Position numbers and translations under genes: made by a program. The notes beneath the pieces were generated by a model. It was not told where the DNA came from. It was given only the letters and a program-made list of their open reading frames with translations, and searched no databases. Shown in pieces: positions 21,068 through 29,202 of a stretch of 64,000 nt of DNA; positions within the stretch are counted from its first letter, which is position 1; the number at the start of each line of letters is the position of its first letter. This stretch comes from Verrucomicrobiota bacterium (GTDB lineage: Bacteria > Verrucomicrobiota > Verrucomicrobiia > Verrucomicrobiales > DEV007). Location of the stretch: NCBI GenBank assembly GCA_003402735.1, contig QQNE01000002.1, forward strand, positions 1 through 64,000, written 5' to 3'.

Positions 21068-24000
21068 TTACTTCGCCAAAGATTCCAAGTAATCGATCAA
21101 CGAAGCGAATTCCCGAACGCTGAAGCTGAGCATCAGCCCCGGGGGCATCATCGAAACCGGCAACCTCTGCCGCTCTTTGATTTCGGCAGTTTGAAAGGTG
21201 AATTCCTGAGCCGCCACGTTGCGAATCTTCACACTGCCCGCACTTTCAAGCGTGACGAACCCCACCTGTTGGGTTCCATCCTTCAGGGTGATCATCTCCG
21301 AGGCGAAACCCTGGGCGATCGTTTTGTTCGGATCCAAAATGTTCTGCGCCAGGTCAGCCCGTTTGTAGGTCTGTGCAATGTTCCCGAGATAGGGTCCCTT
21401 TTGTGCTTGGGATTCGTTCGTGGTGTGGCAGGCGCTGCAGGTGGCCCGGTTGAAAACCTGCTCTCCCAAAGCCACGTCTCCCTTGGCCTGAATCACCGCC
21501 GCCAGCGCCTCCTCCACTTTGAGACTGCCAATTTTCGGGGTTTTGTCTTCGGCCCGGACCAACCGCATCTCCTTGGCGACCCTTTGCGCGGCCGCCCGCA
21601 CCTGCGGGTCTGCATCCTCCAGCGCCACCAAAACCCGGGACGCGCTGCCCTGATGCTTCACGGCACCGATCGCCTCGATGATTTGCCGACGGCGCGCCAG
21701 ATCCGCCCAGCCACGATCGAGCGCCTTGCGCGATAGTTCGGCCGATTCGGGGCTGCCTGTCTGCCGCACCGCCAAGTGGAGAAGGGCGGCGTCGGCAGAT
21801 CGGGACCGGTCCCCGTCCATCGTTTCGGCAATTTCCTCGAACAGCTGGTGATGATTCTCCAGAGACGGCGCATTGAAGAACGCCTGGGCCGCAGCCTCGT
21901 AGGCTTTCTGTGCATCAGGCATCTTTCGCAAATCCGCCAACGCCTTGAGACTGGCTGCCGCCCCGGTCGCGCTGTCCGTCTTGGAAAGGGCCACGATCAC
22001 GTGACCGACGGTTTCCGGCTTCAGGGATGCGCCTGCCTCCAGGGCTTGCAACAGCAAGGACACGGCGGAGGCGGGAACCTCCTCGGCGACGGCAAGCTGA
22101 GCCGCGGCATCCGGAATCACCGCCGGATCTGTCTTGGCCAACTCCAGGATGCGTTCCAGTGCCTGGTTGGATTGGATCCGATTGCGATTCATCTCGCGAA
22201 CCAAAAACCCGGTCTCGGCGGGCGAAGCCTTTTCCAGAGCCCCGGCGAGTGCCGCCGCGATCCTGGGCGTCTCGCTCCAGGGTTCGGGCTGGTAAAACGG
22301 GCCACGGGTGTCGGGACGCGTGCCCCAGGAATCTCCCTGCCACGCGCCATCATGAAAATGAAGTCGGCAGAGAGCGGCCAAGAGACCCTGACGTTTCGTT
22401 GGATCCGCCGTCGCCTGGAGCCGGTCGATCAACCCGGTCACCACCTCCGGTCGGTGCATCAAGGCCAGGGCGCGAACGAAGACCGTGGTTGTTCCCGTCG
22501 CCTTATCGAACGCCGCAAACACCGGCCCTGATGCCTGCAAGGCGGCCAGGGCCCGCGCCGCCGCGTGAGCCACCACCGGATCCGGGTTGCCTGCCTGCGC
22601 CAGAATCTCGTCCACCGCTCCCATGTCCCCGGCATCCGCGATTTCCTTGAACCGGGCGATCAGATTGCGTTCGGCGGTCCGGTTTTGCGCGATCCTCTGC
22701 ATCGCCTCCCCGGCGGCGGGATGACCGCGACGGGCCAGCTCGCGTTGGGATTCGATGCGGCGCCGGTAACTCGGAGAATCGAGCAACTTCACCAACACCG
22801 AATCCTCGGCCTTCGCGAAATCGGGCAACGCCTCGGACACAAAGCCCTTGGGCTTCACACAGACGATGTAGCCGACATCCGGACCTTCCCATTTGAAGGT
22901 GGCACCTTTCCAGCTCGCGCAATAAATGCGGCTCATGGCATCGACATCGGCGTCGGTTGGCCGGGTCAACTTCACCAATGGCTTGGGTGCCGACGTTTCC
23001 ACAAACGTCGCTCCCTTGGCCTGGACGGTGTGATGATACAGCGCGCCGGTTCCCCAATCGCAGGTGAGCGGCGCATGATTCCACGCACCAAACCCTGGCT
23101 CATCAAGGTAGACCGCCCCGCACCCGGAGCCGCCGCCATAGTCCGCCAGGGGCGCGATCGCCTCGTCGGCGAAATTCTTGTAGAGCCGGGGATATCCGTG
23201 ATCGTCCAGCCCGGTGAAATGGTGAAACCGAACGTTCCATCCACCCCCGTCATTGGTGTTGTCCCGGGCGAAAATCTCCAACTCGGGACTCACGGCCACT
23301 TCGAGGATGTTGCGGGTGCCGGTCGAAACCATCTCCAGGCCGGTGCCATCGGGGCGAACCCGGATGACCCCGCCTCCGCGATGGGTCAACTTGCGGCCAT
23401 CGGTCCCCTCAGCCTCCATGAATCCAAAGTCCCCACCGGCGAGGTAAAGCCAACCGTCCGGTCCCAGACTAACTCCGTTGGTGGTGTGGTCCGCCGGGCG
23501 CTTGTCGTAACCAAAAGCCAAATTTTTCACCAGGATCTCACGGCTCTCGGAAACGCCGTCGAGATCCTTGTCCAGGAACGCGCTGAGGTGCGGCGGATGC
23601 ATGACGTAAAGCCTGTCCTTGTCCCAGACCAGACCGCGCGGCGCGTCCACCTCACCAAACACCTTGGTCTCGTCCGCATGGCCATCGCCATCGAGATCCC
23701 GCAAACGAATGATCCGGCCGCGCTTCGGATCACGGCCGAGGGACCCGTTGCCGTCGCTGCTCACGTAAACGGTCCCATCCGGCGCGGCCGCCACGAAGAC
23801 CGGATAATTCACCATCGGCGGCGCGGCAAAAACGGTGACTTCAAATCCCTGGGCCACGTGCACATCGGCCAAAATCGCCGCCTCCTGCGCGGCGGACGGC
23901 TTTTCCGCCCGGGGAGGGACGTTGCCTTCCTTGGCGTATGGATCCGCAGCCGCTTCGGCCAGTTTCCGGGCGGTGGCGGCCTGGGCCTCGTTCAGTTTGG

Positions 24001-25270
24001 GATGGAGAACCTTGATCCCCTCCCCCGTGAGAGTCACTTCCCGAATGCTGGCCCAGCCGCCGCTGCTGCCGAGCGCTTGGATCCGCACGAATCGAACCGC
24101 CATCGGCGTGGCCAACCGATCGGCGTAAGGAGCGGTCCGGATGTTGCCTGAACCATCCACCAGCGTGGTCCAGGCCGAGCCGTCCGTGCTACCTTCGATT
24201 TTGTATTGATAGACCGCTTTGTTCTCCCACGCCGTGGTGACCCCGCTCAACAGGTGCGGTTTTTCGAGCTCGAGTTGCAGCCACTGGGGATACGAACCGC
24301 CGCCGGCACACCAACGGGTCGCCTCGTTGCCGTCGACCGCACACCACGAAACATTGTTCTTGCCGCTTTCCTCGCTGCTGGCGGTGGCCATGACCAGCGT
24401 TGCGTCCTTCGGCGCCGCTCCAGGCACCAATGCCGCCGGAGCCGGCTTTGCGGGCAGTGGGTTGCCCTTGCCGAAGGTGATCTTGTTCGGGCCGGTGAAG
24501 GCTTTGCCGAGATGATCCGCATCCAGCTTGCCGCACGCCCAAAGCAATCCGCGGGTCACCAAATCGAGATAACGCGGATCGCCCACGGTCCCGTTGTTGT
24601 GCCCCAGACTGGTGCTAAAACTCCGCGCGCCCTGAGTCTCGTTGGTCCAGACGACCACCGAAACCACTTCCTTGCTGCTGCCGTCCTTGTTTTTCACCCG
24701 CTGAGTTCCGGTGGCGAGCGGATGCGCGCCGAGGATCTGCACGTTGTTGTATAGCTCCTCCTTGATCGTGGTCCAATCGCTGAGCGACTTGGTCACCGGG
24801 TGGGTCGGGTCGACGAAATCGATGTCGATCGGCTCCTGAGGTCCGTGGGAGGAGGATTGCAGACCGAGGTGTTTGAACCAGCCATCCGTGCCGTTGCGGA
24901 AACTGTGCATGGCGCAATGCAGATGGACCGATGGAATCGTTCGATGAACGTCGACGATGCGTTGGAACGCCTTGAGGTCCTTGTTTCCGGCCGCGCACTC
25001 GTCGTGAATGATCACATCATACCCCGTGGCCCAATCCGCGCGGTCATACAGGCTGAGGGGAGGATTGGTCGATTTGTCGTCCGTCCACCAGACATCCACC
25101 TGGACGAAGGCACGAGCCTGGATCCCCTCGAACAGGAGCTTGTGTTGCGCGGCGTAATCGTGACAACAACCGCCGGCCACCAACAACGCCTTCAAGGGCC
25201 GACCCTCCTCACCGGCGGCCAGGGCGATGCTCATCAAGAAGGCGGAGGGAAGAACGATACGGAAATTCAT
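21068..25270 (-). CDS. giant PVC-type protein: ThuA + discoidin-like + beta-propeller dehydrogenase + HEAT + cytochrome c
   Basis: A 1400-residue exported multidomain protein. Order from the N terminus: signal peptide (1-19); ThuA/trehalose-utilisation-like glutamine-amidotransferase fold (about 27-265, KALLVAGGCCHDYAAQHK .. VIIHDECAAGN); F5/8 type C (discoidin, CBM32-like) domain (about 290-415, NEATRWCAGGGSYPQWLQLELE); a 6-bladed propeller of the 'membrane-bound dehydrogenase' PVC family (about 460-860, FVAAAPDGTVYVSSD, DGDGHADETKVF); HEAT-like helical repeats (about 870-1240); and a C-terminal cytochrome c with one haem site CSACH near 1280 and a distal Met candidate in PVSMMPPG. Probably a periplasmic or surface sugar-oxidising enzyme passing electrons to its own haem. 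Divergent from leuA. Confidence 0.9.
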   Translation of the reverse strand: MNFRIVLPSAFLMSIALAAGEEGRPLKALLVAGGCCHDYAAQHKLLFEGIQARAFVQVDVWWTDDKSTNPPLSLYDRADWATGYDVIIHDECAAGNKDLKAFQRIVDVHRTIPSVHLHCAMHSFRNGTDGWFKHLGLQSSSHGPQEPIDIDFVDPTHPVTKSLSDWTTIKEELYNNVQILGAHPLATGTQRVKNKDGSSKEVVSVVVWTNETQGARSFSTSLGHNNGTVGDPRYLDLVTRGLLWACGKLDADHLGKAFTGPNKITFGKGNPLPAKPAPAALVPGAAPKDATLVMATASSEESGKNNVSWCAVDGNEATRWCAGGGSYPQWLQLELEKPHLLSGVTTAWENKAVYQYKIEGSTDGSAWTTLVDGSGNIRTAPYADRLATPMAVRFVRIQALGSSGGWASIREVTLTGEGIKVLHPKLNEAQAATARKLAEAAADPYAKEGNVPPRAEKPSAAQEAAILADVHVAQGFEVTVFAAPPMVNYPVFVAAAPDGTVYVSSDGNGSLGRDPKRGRIIRLRDLDGDGHADETKVFGEVDAPRGLVWDKDRLYVMHPPHLSAFLDKDLDGVSESREILVKNLAFGYDKRPADHTTNGVSLGPDGWLYLAGGDFGFMEAEGTDGRKLTHRGGGVIRVRPDGTGLEMVSTGTRNILEVAVSPELEIFARDNTNDGGGWNVRFHHFTGLDDHGYPRLYKNFADEAIAPLADYGGGSGCGAVYLDEPGFGAWNHAPLTCDWGTGALYHHTVQAKGATFVETSAPKPLVKLTRPTDADVDAMSRIYCASWKGATFKWEGPDVGYIVCVKPKGFVSEALPDFAKAEDSVLVKLLDSPSYRRRIESQRELARRGHPAAGEAMQRIAQNRTAERNLIARFKEIADAGDMGAVDEILAQAGNPDPVVAHAAARALAALQASGPVFAAFDKATGTTTVFVRALALMHRPEVVTGLIDRLQATADPTKRQGLLAALCRLHFHDGAWQGDSWGTRPDTRGPFYQPEPWSETPRIAAALAGALEKASPAETGFLVREMNRNRIQSNQALERILELAKTDPAVIPDAAAQLAVAEEVPASAVSLLLQALEAGASLKPETVGHVIVALSKTDSATGAAASLKALADLRKMPDAQKAYEAAAQAFFNAPSLENHHQLFEEIAETMDGDRSRSADAALLHLAVRQTGSPESAELSRKALDRGWADLARRRQIIEAIGAVKHQGSASRVLVALEDADPQVRAAAQRVAKEMRLVRAEDKTPKIGSLKVEEALAAVIQAKGDVALGEQVFNRATCSACHTTNESQAQKGPYLGNIAQTYKRADLAQNILDPNKTIAQGFASEMITLKDGTQQVGFVTLESAGSVKIRNVAAQEFTFQTAEIKERQRLPVSMMPPGLMLSFSVREFASLIDYLESLAK

Positions 25271-25320
25271 GGGACAATTGCGCTTCGCGGAATCGCTCGC
25301 TTTGGAGCAAACGGCAAGAC

Positions 25321-25347
25321 AAAAAAGGGCGGGCCGGATTTGCCCGC
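25321..25347 (-). terminator. intrinsic-terminator-like hairpin in the leader of the ThuA/cytochrome gene
   Basis: Read on the minus strand: GCGGGC, loop AAATCCG, GCCCGC, then CCTTTTTT. This is a 6-bp GC stem followed closely by six T, 51 bp upstream of the ThuA gene start on the same strand. No minus-strand gene precedes it, so it either blocks antisense readthrough from the leuA side or conditionally stops the ThuA transcript. On the plus strand no U-tract follows. Confidence 0.6.
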
Positions 25348-25397
25348 TTGCCAGCCCCTGTAACGGAGGCTAGTCTGCCTTTCTTTCGGCAATCTCC

Positions 25398-25484
25398 GTG
25401 CAACGTCGGCTCCCACCTCTTCTTCTGCTGACCCATCGCCCCCTCCTGCTCCTCCTCGGACGGGCGGCCGGGCTCGCGCGGTAG
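25398..25484 (+). CDS. leucine-rich leader peptide of leuA (predicted)
   Basis: A 28-codon frame starting with GTG, too short for the ORF track, ending in TAG 94 bp before the leuA ATG. It holds 11 Leu codons, including a run of four (PPLLLLT) and a run of five (PLLLLLG). Leucine-rich leaders before leuA are the hallmark of ribosome-mediated attenuation in enterobacteria and actinobacteria: ribosomes stall at the Leu runs when charged tRNA-Leu is scarce. Weak points: no Shine-Dalgarno sequence near the GTG (a GGAGG is 28 bp upstream) and the local sequence is pyrimidine-rich, which favours Leu codons by composition. Confidence 0.65.
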   Translation: MQRRLPPLLLLTHRPLLLLLGRAAGLAR

Positions 25485-25543
25485 ACGCTTGCTTTCCCGT
25501 CCGCCCCGTCCGATGTCCATGTCCGGTTCCACACCGGGCGGAC
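25457..25543 (+). promoter_or_regulatory. candidate leucine attenuator with competing hairpins
   Basis: Segment 1 CGGACGGGCGG (25457-25467), at the end of the second Leu run, can pair with segment 2 CCGCCCCGTCCG (25501-25512) through 11 bp with one bulge. Segment 2 with its two preceding bases, GTCCGCCC (25499-25506), pairs instead with segment 3 GGGCGGAC (25536-25543), 8 bp. Segment 3 can also fold locally (25521-25527 with 25533-25539). These pairings exclude each other, and a ribosome stalled at the Leu codons would cover segment 1. No U-tract follows, so control may be Rho-dependent or translational. Confidence 0.5.
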
Positions 25544-25578
25544 TCCCCCCGCATTCTGATTTCGTTACAGCCCATGCC

Positions 25579-27291
25579 ATGAACCCGAGTTCCCTGCACA
25601 AATACCGACCCTTTCCGCCGGTGCATCTGCCCGACCGGACCTGGCCGGACCGCCGCCTTGAGCGGGCCCCCATCTGGTGCAGCGTGGATTTGAGGGACGG
25701 CAACCAAGCTCTACCCATTCCCATGAGTGTGGAAGAGAAGATCGAGATGTTCGATCTGCTCGTGCGCATCGGCTTCAAACAGATCGAGGTCGGCTTCCCT
25801 TCCGCTGCGGATACCGAATTCAACTTCCTGCGCCGCCTCGCCGACGAAAACCGCATCCCGCCAGATGTCACCGTCCAGGTGCTGGTCCAGGCTCGCGAGC
25901 ACCTCATTCGCCGCACCTTCGAAGCTCTGGAAGGCATTCCCCGCGCCATCGTTCACCTCTACAATTCCACGTCCCCCCTGCAGAGGCGCGTCACCTTCCG
26001 GGACGCATCGCGCGAGGAGATCAAGAAGATCGCCACGGAGGGGACCGCCCTGGTGAAAGAATTGGCCGGCCGGGTGCCTCCCTCGCAGCGCATCGATTTC
26101 CAATATTCGCCGGAGAGCTTTTCCGACACCGAACTCGATTTCTCCCTGGAGGTTTGTGAGGCGGTCAAAGCGATTTGGCGCCCCACCCGGGATCAGCCCA
26201 TGATCCTGAATCTGCCGGCCACCGTGGAGTGGAGCACCCCGAATGTTCACGCCGACCAGATCGAATGGTTCTGCCGCCAGATCAGCCATCGCGACACGGT
26301 GATCATCAGCCTACACACCCACAACGACCGCGGCACCGGCATCGCCGCCACCGAACTCGGCTTGCTGGCCGGAGCGGACCGGGTCGAAGGCACTTTGTTT
26401 GGGAACGGCGAACGCACCGGCAACCTCGATCTGGTCGTGGTGGCCCTGAACCTGAACAGCCATGGAATCGAAACCGGTCTCGACTTCTCCGATCTCCCCG
26501 CCATCCGCGCCGTCTACGAACGCTGCACGCGCATGACCGTTCCCGAACGGCAACCCTACGCCGGGGAACTGGTTTTCACCGCCTTTTCCGGGAGCCACCA
26601 GGACGCCATCAAGAAGGGGTTCGATCGCCGCTCCGCCGAACTCGCCGACAATCCCCACCTTGCCTGGGGCGTGCCTTACCTGACCATCGATCCTCGGGAT
26701 ATCGGCCGCAGCTACGAGGCAATCATCCGAATCAACAGCCAGAGCGGACGTGGCGGTGTGGCCTACGTCCTTGACCGGGATCACGGGCTCGACCTTCCCA
26801 AGACCATGCATCATCAAGTCGGTCATGCGATCTACTCCCACGCAGACCGCTTGGGTCGGGAACTCTCGAGCGACGAAATTCGCGAATACTTCCACGAGCA
26901 CTTCGTGAACCTCAACGAGCCGTTTGCCTTGCTCGATTTCGAACTCAATCATCATGGACCGGGCAAACCTGGCGAAGTTCGCTGCCAAGCCACTTTCCGC
27001 GCCCATGGGAAGACGCTCCAACTTTCAGGCACCGGCAACGGCCCCATCAATGCGCTGGTGCGAGCGCTCGAGGCCGTCGGCCTCAAGACGTTTCATGTGA
27101 CGGATTACCGCTCCCACGCCGTCCGCGGCGGATCCGACGCCGACTCGGCGGCGTTCGTCCAACTCAATCAGACCGAAACCGGCGACCTTGTTTGGGGCTG
27201 CGGAATCGATCCCTCGATTGAGATGGCCGGGCTGCGCGCCCTGGTGAGTGCCATGAACCTTCTCGCCTCCGGGGAGAGACTTGGCGCCTGA
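25579..27291 (+). CDS. leuA: 2-isopropylmalate synthase
   Basis: First committed enzyme of leucine synthesis: condenses acetyl-CoA with 2-oxoisovalerate in the cytosol. The 570-residue form is the long type (LeuA type 2 as in actinobacteria). IWCSVDLRDGNQAL near residue 35 is the substrate/metal motif, LHTHNDRG near 245 holds the metal-binding His pair, GNGERTGN follows, and the C-terminal ~130 residues (TFRAHGKTLQLSGTGNGPINALVRAL) form the leucine-binding regulatory domain, so feedback inhibition is expected. ATG 25579 is chosen because MNPSSLHKYRPFPP matches the family N terminus; the TTG at 25489 overlaps the predicted attenuator. Stands alone here, with no leuB, leuC or leuD nearby. Confidence 0.96.
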   Translation: MNPSSLHKYRPFPPVHLPDRTWPDRRLERAPIWCSVDLRDGNQALPIPMSVEEKIEMFDLLVRIGFKQIEVGFPSAADTEFNFLRRLADENRIPPDVTVQVLVQAREHLIRRTFEALEGIPRAIVHLYNSTSPLQRRVTFRDASREEIKKIATEGTALVKELAGRVPPSQRIDFQYSPESFSDTELDFSLEVCEAVKAIWRPTRDQPMILNLPATVEWSTPNVHADQIEWFCRQISHRDTVIISLHTHNDRGTGIAATELGLLAGADRVEGTLFGNGERTGNLDLVVVALNLNSHGIETGLDFSDLPAIRAVYERCTRMTVPERQPYAGELVFTAFSGSHQDAIKKGFDRRSAELADNPHLAWGVPYLTIDPRDIGRSYEAIIRINSQSGRGGVAYVLDRDHGLDLPKTMHHQVGHAIYSHADRLGRELSSDEIREYFHEHFVNLNEPFALLDFELNHHGPGKPGEVRCQATFRAHGKTLQLSGTGNGPINALVRALEAVGLKTFHVTDYRSHAVRGGSDADSAAFVQLNQTETGDLVWGCGIDPSIEMAGLRALVSAMNLLASGERLGA

Positions 27292-27330: not shown

Positions 27331-28839
27331 TCAGTTCCCGGGCTTGCTGTGCGAAGCACGGGTGACTGCGGCTGCGGCCGCCGCCGGCTTGCTCCGGTCA
27401 TAACCGCCACCCAAAGCGCGGTAAGCCAGGATCCAGGCGCTCAACTGACGCTGCTTGAGTTCGATCAACTCCAGCCGAGCGTCCAGTGTATCCCGCTGCG
27501 TCAACAACACCTCGGTGTAATCGGCCCGGGCCGCGTTGAAAAGCTCCACGGAAGTCCCGATGGCGCCGGTTAGCGTCTCGACCTCCTTGGTCTTCAAATC
27601 GTAGCCGCTGCCAAGATTCCGGATTTGGGCGAGTTGATTCACCACCTCCACGTAGGCATTCAACATGGTCTGCTGGTATTGATAGAGTGCCGCCAACTGC
27701 CGAGCGTTCGCGCTTTGAAAGGCCGCCTTGATCGCGCTCCGGTTGATCAGGGGCGCGGCGAGGTCCGCCACGGCGTTGTAGGCCACGCTCTCCGGCGCCG
27801 TCAGCAGAGATCCCATCTGGAAGGCATTAAACCCGAGCGCCCCGCCGATATCGAGGGACGGGTAAAAACGGGCACTTGCAGCCTTCACCTCCAGCCCGGC
27901 CGCCTTCAATTCCAACTCCGCTCTCCGCACATCCGGACGATTCCGAAGCAGATCCGAAGGCACCCCGGCAGCGATCGATGCCAAGGAGAGGCGCTCAAAC
28001 CCGACGGATTTCCTCTGGATCGGCGTGGGGTAACGGCCCGCCAGGAAGTTGAGGCGATTTTCCAAAACCGTGATCTGCTGACGGATGTCGTAGACTCGGC
28101 TCTGGTTCTTGAGCACTTCCGCCTCAAACCGACGCACCGCCAGCTCGGTCACCTTTGCGGCCGCCTTCTGCAACCTCACCGCCTCCAACGCGCTTTGTTG
28201 CACCTCGATGGTCTGGCGAAGAATATCGGCTTGGTTGTCGAGCGCGAGAAGCTCGTAGTAGCTCCGCGCGATCTCCGATACCAAGTTGGTCACCATGAAA
28301 GTCCGGCCCTCCTGGGACGCCAAGTAACGCAAAACCGCAGCGTCCCGTTCATTGCGGAGACGCCTCCAGATGTCCACCTCCCAAGAAAAATCGGCCCGGA
28401 AATTGAAGTCCGACAAGGGGTCAGGGAACGCTTCACCCGGACGAATCTCCAGGTTTTCCTCGACGGCCCCACTCCGGGTGAACTCCCCGACCTTGTCGAC
28501 TCCGCCCCCGGCTCCCAGCCGAACGAAGGGGAAGACGGCCCCTTTGCGCTGAAGGACCTCGCTCTTGGACACGGCGATCTCCTGAAGCAGGATGTTCAAT
28601 TCCTGGTTGCGCGCCAGGGAATCGCTGATCAGCCCGGCCAACGTCTCATCCCGGAAATACTCTTTCCAGTCCAGCAACGCCGAATTGGCGCTCTCCTCGG
28701 CGACCGGGAAATGCTCGGGGACCGTCCAGTCCGACGCCGCGGACCCATCGGCATCCGTCTTCAGCAGCGCACAGCCCTGGGAAAGCAGCGCCAAACAGCC
28801 CACCCCCATCGCCCAGTTGATCGGAGTGTTTCGCTTCAT
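27331..28839 (-). CDS. RND efflux outer-membrane lipoprotein (OprM/NodT family)
   Basis: Outer-membrane channel of a tripartite efflux pump. From ATG 28839 it begins with a lipoprotein signal MKRNTPINWAMGVGCLALLSQGC, the Cys at the end of LSQGC being lipidated. The 502 residues show the two OEP repeats, with long coiled helices (ARSYYELLALDNQADILRQTI ... AAKVTELAVRRFEAEV and the second copy near SANARQLAALYQYQQT) and FSWEVDIWRRLRNE plus RPDVRRAELELKAAG, both family hallmarks. Divergent from the adaptor and pump genes (363 bp apart), so the three parts are probably co-regulated from the shared intergenic region. Convergent with leuA (39 bp). Confidence 0.93.
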   Translation of the reverse strand: MKRNTPINWAMGVGCLALLSQGCALLKTDADGSAASDWTVPEHFPVAEESANSALLDWKEYFRDETLAGLISDSLARNQELNILLQEIAVSKSEVLQRKGAVFPFVRLGAGGGVDKVGEFTRSGAVEENLEIRPGEAFPDPLSDFNFRADFSWEVDIWRRLRNERDAAVLRYLASQEGRTFMVTNLVSEIARSYYELLALDNQADILRQTIEVQQSALEAVRLQKAAAKVTELAVRRFEAEVLKNQSRVYDIRQQITVLENRLNFLAGRYPTPIQRKSVGFERLSLASIAAGVPSDLLRNRPDVRRAELELKAAGLEVKAASARFYPSLDIGGALGFNAFQMGSLLTAPESVAYNAVADLAAPLINRSAIKAAFQSANARQLAALYQYQQTMLNAYVEVVNQLAQIRNLGSGYDLKTKEVETLTGAIGTSVELFNAARADYTEVLLTQRDTLDARLELIELKQRQLSAWILAYRALGGGYDRSKPAAAAAAVTRASHSKPGN

Positions 28840-29202
28840 GAGAGATGATTCATGAGGTCCGCCGACCCGGTGAGTCCGCCACCAGACACTAACCGCAACA
28901 TCGTCCAGGGTTTCATTCTTGCGCGTGAATTTGAATGACAATGGCCACAAAGCCGTGCCGTCCCCAAGAGTCAACGCTTGGCGGAAATCCCGGCACCTCA
29001 GCGCTATCTATTGACACCGGCACCTCGCACCCGCAAGCAGGAATTCTGCGCTTCTGCCTCTTGCAACCTCACAACGCAGAGTGCCACCTCCCATGAGCAC
29101 TCGTCTTCCCGGAACATCGGGTCCCAAGGGTGAAAAAATACCCTGCCGAGGCGATGGCAATCGACGGCATCCTGTGATTGTGTCAACTTGGACCATCCTG
29201 CA
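28840..29202. promoter_or_regulatory. divergent intergenic region of the RND efflux genes
   Basis: This 363-bp region has no supported gene. It must carry promoters for the outer-membrane component (minus) and the adaptor-pump pair (plus). A TTGACA occurs at 29013-29018 on the plus strand without a recognisable -10 partner. AGGGT-GAAAAAAT-ACCCT (29127-29144) is a short inverted repeat. No TetR- or MarR-type regulator gene is adjacent. Confidence 0.4.

Follow-up and report, generated by a model that had tools for sequence, protein, structure and literature searches.

The leuA gene in a 64,000-nucleotide stretch of verrucomicrobial DNA (the window) is preceded by a short Leu-rich leader frame and by RNA that can pair in alternative ways. 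We consider it likely, with a probability of roughly 0.82, that this arrangement works as a leucine-responsive, ribosome-mediated attenuator of leuA. The first-pass annotation of the region had proposed ribosome-stalling attenuation, and this reading is supported here by the Leu-rich frame, the alternative pairings and covarying relatives. The leader and its gene comprise the following features:

25398–25484, + strand: leader peptide frame, read from the sequence and kept in both congeners
25419–25430, + strand: first Leu run, 4 codons, candidate stall site (from the sequence)
25443–25457, + strand: second Leu run, 5 codons, candidate stall site (from the sequence)
25579–27291, + strand: leuA, 2-isopropylmalate synthase of the yeast/actinobacterial type (NCBIfam TIGR00970 and NF002991)

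The leuA product scored 739 bits against TIGR00970 (cut-off 697) and 793 bits against NF002991, and its ATG at 25579 occupies a position common to relatives. The large frames on either side (21068–25270 and 27331–28974) both lie on the minus strand, and the leader therefore serves leuA alone. The leader frame starts with GTG, has 28 codons and reads V/M-QRRLPPLLLLTHRPLLLLLGRAAGLAR before its stop codon. Leu occupies 11 of the 28 codons (5, 8–11, 16–20 and 26), with runs of four and five, and the stop is separated from the leuA ATG by 94 nt. The first-pass annotation had given the same start, length, Leu content, runs and spacing; re-reading the sequence returned all of them, which confirms that the Leu-rich leader before leuA is real. 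As in classical attenuators, a short frame rich in codons for the amino acid of the pathway thus lies upstream of a biosynthetic gene.

The spacer before leuA is pyrimidine-rich, and C/T-rich sequence favours CTN codons, so we considered whether the frame could be a product of chance. When the 250 nt before leuA were shuffled 5000 times with dinucleotides preserved, a Leu-rich frame of any kind (by the fixed rule given below) appeared in 0.4% of the shuffles and one with at least 11 Leu in 0.04%. An oriented alignment showed that both congeners keep the leader frame, with indels in multiples of three; one leader has 11 Leu (L004), the other only 6 and no run of three (L003). For a wider comparison, 90 of 115 related genomes yielded a leuA and a further 80 public loci were added, giving 148 usable upstream regions, which were oriented on the leuA start. 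A frame of 10–60 codons lying within 250 nt was counted as Leu-rich if Leu made up at least 25% of it, with five or more Leu in all and three of them in a run. This rule was passed by 42 of 110 verrucomicrobial loci, or 41 of 107 after removal of three duplicates, against about 1.8 expected from shuffles, and by none of the same upstream regions on the reverse strand. The rule is strict, for it passes over sister-genus leaders of obvious homology. These comparative data refute a chance origin. The trait is patchy in the phylum: leaders were absent or unrecognised in a substantial part of it, for example at L010, L021, L036–L038, L041–L044 and L046–L047. By inspection, no leader rich in branched-chain codons precedes ilvB of the same and related genomes (L152–L157), and the leader therefore tracks leuA.

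The survey also brought out a decanucleotide, CTNCGACTTA, which occurs before leuA at 22 of the 148 loci, with about 0.2 expected, and mostly encodes Leu-Arg-Leu in the leader frame. The loci are L053, L058, L061, L067, L075, L076, L083, L097, L110, L113, L119, L121, L123, L127, L142–L144, L146–L149 and L151; the carriers belong to several verrucomicrobial classes and also include SAR86, Chromohalobacter and a Sphingomonas-labelled locus. The decanucleotide is absent from the window. Its codon choice (CGA CTT) is unusually uniform, which hints at a constraint on RNA or decoding.

A promoter-like pair of hexamers lies just upstream of the leader frame:

25348–25376, + strand: predicted promoter, −35 TTGCCA (25348–25353), 17-nt spacer, −10 TAGTCT (25371–25376), conserved in the family

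Both congeners keep the TTGCCA-17-TAGTCT arrangement. Among 57 family members, 28 have a pair with the same hexamer pattern and a spacing of 16–17 in much the same relative position, whereas shuffles would give 0.14; a strict sigma-70 scan did not recognise the pair in the window. Because the conserved pair sits upstream of the frame, the leader is probably transcribed, with a transcript start predicted near 25383. The sequence lends no support to a start past 25484, which the first-pass annotation had named as an outcome that would speak against its reading. As judged from sequence, then, the leader frame lies downstream of a promoter, as it does in classical attenuators.

Folding of the leader end and the spacer gave these elements:

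25458–25472, + strand: segment 1, leader codons that follow the second Leu run, pairing with segment 2 (minimum free energy fold; duplex in the window and its two congeners)
25496–25511, + strand: segment 2, partner of segment 1 or segment 3 (fold and duplex energies)
25512–25545, + strand: local hairpin of segment 3, alternative to the 2:3 pairing (−16.2 kcal/mol)
25536–25543, + strand: segment 3, pairing with 25499–25506 (8 bp) or locally (2:3 pairs in the window and its two congeners)

The first-pass annotation had described a 1:2 pairing, an alternative 8-bp 2:3 pairing and a local fold of segment 3. All three were recovered, with 1:2 present in the minimum free energy structure as 12 + 4 pairs with small bulges, and with 25499–25506 of segment 2 alternatively joined to segment 3. 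The energies in the window were −36.3 kcal/mol for the 1:2 region and −19.3 kcal/mol for the 2:3 region. Folding of 25390–25580, the check suggested at first pass, gave a z-score of −3.2, and 1 of 200 dinucleotide shuffles was as stable. Across the window and its congeners the 1:2 duplex reached −32.2, −29.1 and −22.6 kcal/mol, beating 98.6–100% of shuffles, and the 2:3 duplex reached −19, −19 and −20 kcal/mol, beating at least 98% of shuffled partners. The RNA is able to form both 1:2 and 2:3, and both are conserved in the congeners. Folding the alignment of the three sequences returned 2:3 as the consensus, with one double change from U-A to C-G and additional wobble changes. Covariation of 2:3 within the genus appears weak: 169 of 500 shuffles matched the double change, with three sequences only. 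The mutually exclusive pairings of classical attenuators, one of them involving the leader frame, are thus found in these three sequences, and covariation is found in the sister genus.

The sister-genus leaders (23 genomes) all start with ATG, encode 23–24 amino acids and end at the same place with TGA or TAG, the stop codon being preserved through exchange of the two. Leu makes up 30.6% of their codons in frame compared with 7.0% and 7.5% in the two alternative frames. Since the ATG (L007–L030, L112–L117) mostly lies 10–14 nt past the −10 hexamer, the mRNA of these leaders is probably close to leaderless, a feature also reported for leuL1 of Streptomyces lividans (PMC8079986). We described the RNA by a model, R1, with four stems: an AGCACC/GGTGCT stem lies in the coding sequence, an inner hairpin spans Leu codons, a further hairpin holds the stop codon in its loop, and a hairpin with a G-rich and a C-rich arm stands ahead of a T-rich stretch. 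After realignment to 29 loci, 85.7% of cells paired and 12 of 21 pairs had changed on both sides. No measure of covariation was reached by any of 500 shuffles, and slid controls were far lower; these figures come from related sequences in an alignment fitted to the model. A search of 77 genomes with R1 returned ten matches, one per genome, each abutting leuA or just before it. R1 did not match the window or its congeners but did match the intermediate relatives L006, L028, L115 and L120; the RNA structures of the two genera thus differ in detail, and we claim no single RNA family. At the genus, family and phylum levels, the first-pass suggestion to look among relatives for a conserved Leu-rich frame and covarying stems was borne out.

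We rejected a four-segment scheme of the sister-genus RNA that would pair the downstream G-rich arm with the 3′ arm of the stop-codon hairpin, since on inspection this pairing breaks in members with GCCGAG. Loci of other family genera (L129, L125, L130, L126 and L122) have a stronger stop-codon hairpin, for example CTCGGCC-TATA-GGCCGAG, followed in some by a T-rich stretch; this hairpin may itself be a terminator. We also considered that the leuA leaders of Verrucomicrobiales might form a new structured RNA class, defined by a covarying stem in the leader coding region and, after it, a hairpin whose loop holds the stop codon. What such a hairpin reports would be ribosome arrival or release at the stop codon, in place of stalling or in addition to it; the mRNA would be nearly leaderless, the output would not be intrinsic, and the window's genus would be a diverged form. 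We hold this proposal to be tentative and on balance rather unlikely.

Leaders with true terminators were found in subdivision 3, where eight public loci (L065–L071 and L073) have hairpins of 11–12 bp followed by T-runs before leuA. In the seven with alignable leaders (MNRNLNLLLTNALLNGAAVGF before the stop codon, and similar), pairing holds in 98.7% of terminator cells. In the six closest of the seven, the codons at the leader's end can pair with the 5′ arm of the terminator at −17 to −23 kcal/mol. The resulting antiterminator has 84% of its cells paired, with covariation not above shuffles in these seven sequences. This is an attenuator of plain design, and it offers the best indication of polarity: a ribosome that has reached the stop codon would leave the terminator free, whereas one stalled upstream on the Leu codons would allow the end of the leader to capture the terminator's 5′ arm. 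At three loci labelled Spirochaeta, Spirochaetaceae and Nitriliruptoraceae (L052, L056 and L059), a closely related leuA likewise has both a Leu-rich leader and a strong intrinsic terminator in front of it; horizontal transfer or mis-binning is possible.

Comparison with subdivision 3, where the leader end can bind the 5′ arm of a true terminator, suggests that in the window leuA is ON when 1:2 forms and OFF when the 2:3 hairpin does. Transcription would begin just upstream of the leader frame, as the conserved promoter indicates, and the Leu-rich leader would be translated, as the conservation of the frame implies. When charged tRNA-Leu is scarce, the ribosome would stall at the Leu runs; segment 1 would then be open to capture segment 2, 2:3 would be blocked and leuA would be made. 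When leucine is plentiful, the ribosome would reach the stop and cover or disrupt segment 1, so that 2:3 could form and leuA expression would be reduced.

The same attenuator can also be read with the reverse polarity, as in E. coli: 1:2 together with local folding of segment 3 would be the default OFF state, and a ribosome held up in the second Leu run would mask segment 1, allowing 2:3 to form and turning leuA ON. The minimum free energy structure is indeed 1:2 plus the local hairpin, and segment 1 begins directly after the second Leu run, where a late-stalled ribosome would mask it. However, the earlier Leu run should stall the ribosome first, leaving segment 1 free; the local hairpin of segment 3 likewise has no U-tract; and in subdivision 3 the leader end has the terminator's 5′ arm as its direct partner. 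We therefore regard this polarity as possible but doubtful, and favor 1:2 as the ON pairing.

A terminator scan found no U-tract or intrinsic terminator on the leuA strand of the window and none in the congeners, so that the caveat on a missing U-tract in the first-pass annotation was right for this genus. For this reason the OFF step probably works through Rho-dependent termination, through pausing or at the level of translation. Intrinsic terminators, the output of classical attenuators, are present in the subdivision-3 relatives and lacking in the window and its congeners; we therefore do not file the window's device as a classical transcription attenuator, only as one that works like it. 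Occlusion of a Shine-Dalgarno sequence was rejected as the output, as some 34 nt separate the hairpins from the ATG and no such sequence is visible.

The leader might instead merely feed ribosomes to leuA by reinitiation or coupling, with no leucine sensing. It does lie between promoter and gene, and such frames can aid initiation (PMC4833913), but 94 nt is too far for ordinary reinitiation, and the enrichment in Leu and the alternative pairings would be left unexplained; we give this explanation very little credence. Control by a LEU element, as proposed for Actinobacteria, would have Leu codons pair with the leuA Shine-Dalgarno sequence (PMC1262725), possibly with a bound protein, in place of ribosome-stalling attenuation. 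Actinobacterial leuA leaders are also Leu-rich and leaderless and have no terminator (PMC1262725, PMC8079986), and the leuA of the window is of the TIGR00970 type, with actinobacterial leuA among its relatives. Inspection found no purine-rich Shine-Dalgarno sequence before 25579 with which the CTC/CTT codons could form the base stem of a LEU element; the pairings that we found join the leader end and the spacer, at least 34 nt before the ATG. Control of this kind is therefore highly unlikely, and we retain the attenuator.

Leucine attenuation before leuA is known in enterobacteria. It has also been proposed for Shewanella (PMC2659441), and Actinobacteria have Leu leaders of unsettled mechanism (PMC1262725, PMC8079986, PMC4046766), among them leuL1 of Streptomyces lividans, whose leader mRNA is reported to be leaderless and without a typical terminator (PMC8079986). 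The window resembles the leu attenuator of E. coli and Salmonella (Leu_leader, RF00512) and its Shewanella counterpart in having a Leu-rich leader before leuA and alternative pairings of leader end, spacer and downstream arm. Unlike RF00512, it has no U-tract terminator, its peptide and RNA sequences are different, and its leuA is of the yeast/actinobacterial type. With the actinobacterial leaders it shares a Leu-rich leader before a related leuA, an mRNA predicted to be (nearly) leaderless and the lack of a typical terminator. The subdivision-3 leaders have the same order of Leu codons, distal leader segment, stop, segment 2 and segment 3, and the same pairing of the distal leader segment with the 5′ arm of the downstream hairpin, but the 2:3 stem of the window has 8 bp and no T-run, unlike their 11–12 bp hairpins with T-runs. 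Rfam, including RF00512, gave no match at gathering scores in the window and 20 related loci, and none at E ≤ 1 in 25250–25700. A literature search, with most subscription journals outside its reach, found no report of leuA attenuation in Verrucomicrobia, and we do not claim priority. What is new here is the phylum and the particular RNA architectures; the kind of device is already known from E. coli leu and Streptomyces leuL.

The finding widens the range of leucine attenuation to include a phylum in which our search had turned up no example. The relatives present natural stages, from the textbook leader with a terminator in subdivision 3, through a compact covarying RNA with the stop codon in a hairpin loop in one genus, to the terminator-less form of the window. 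Found ready-made in nature, these variants could help to show how attenuators acquire or shed intrinsic terminators. For those annotating these mostly uncultured genomes, the leader is a leucine sensor to seek.
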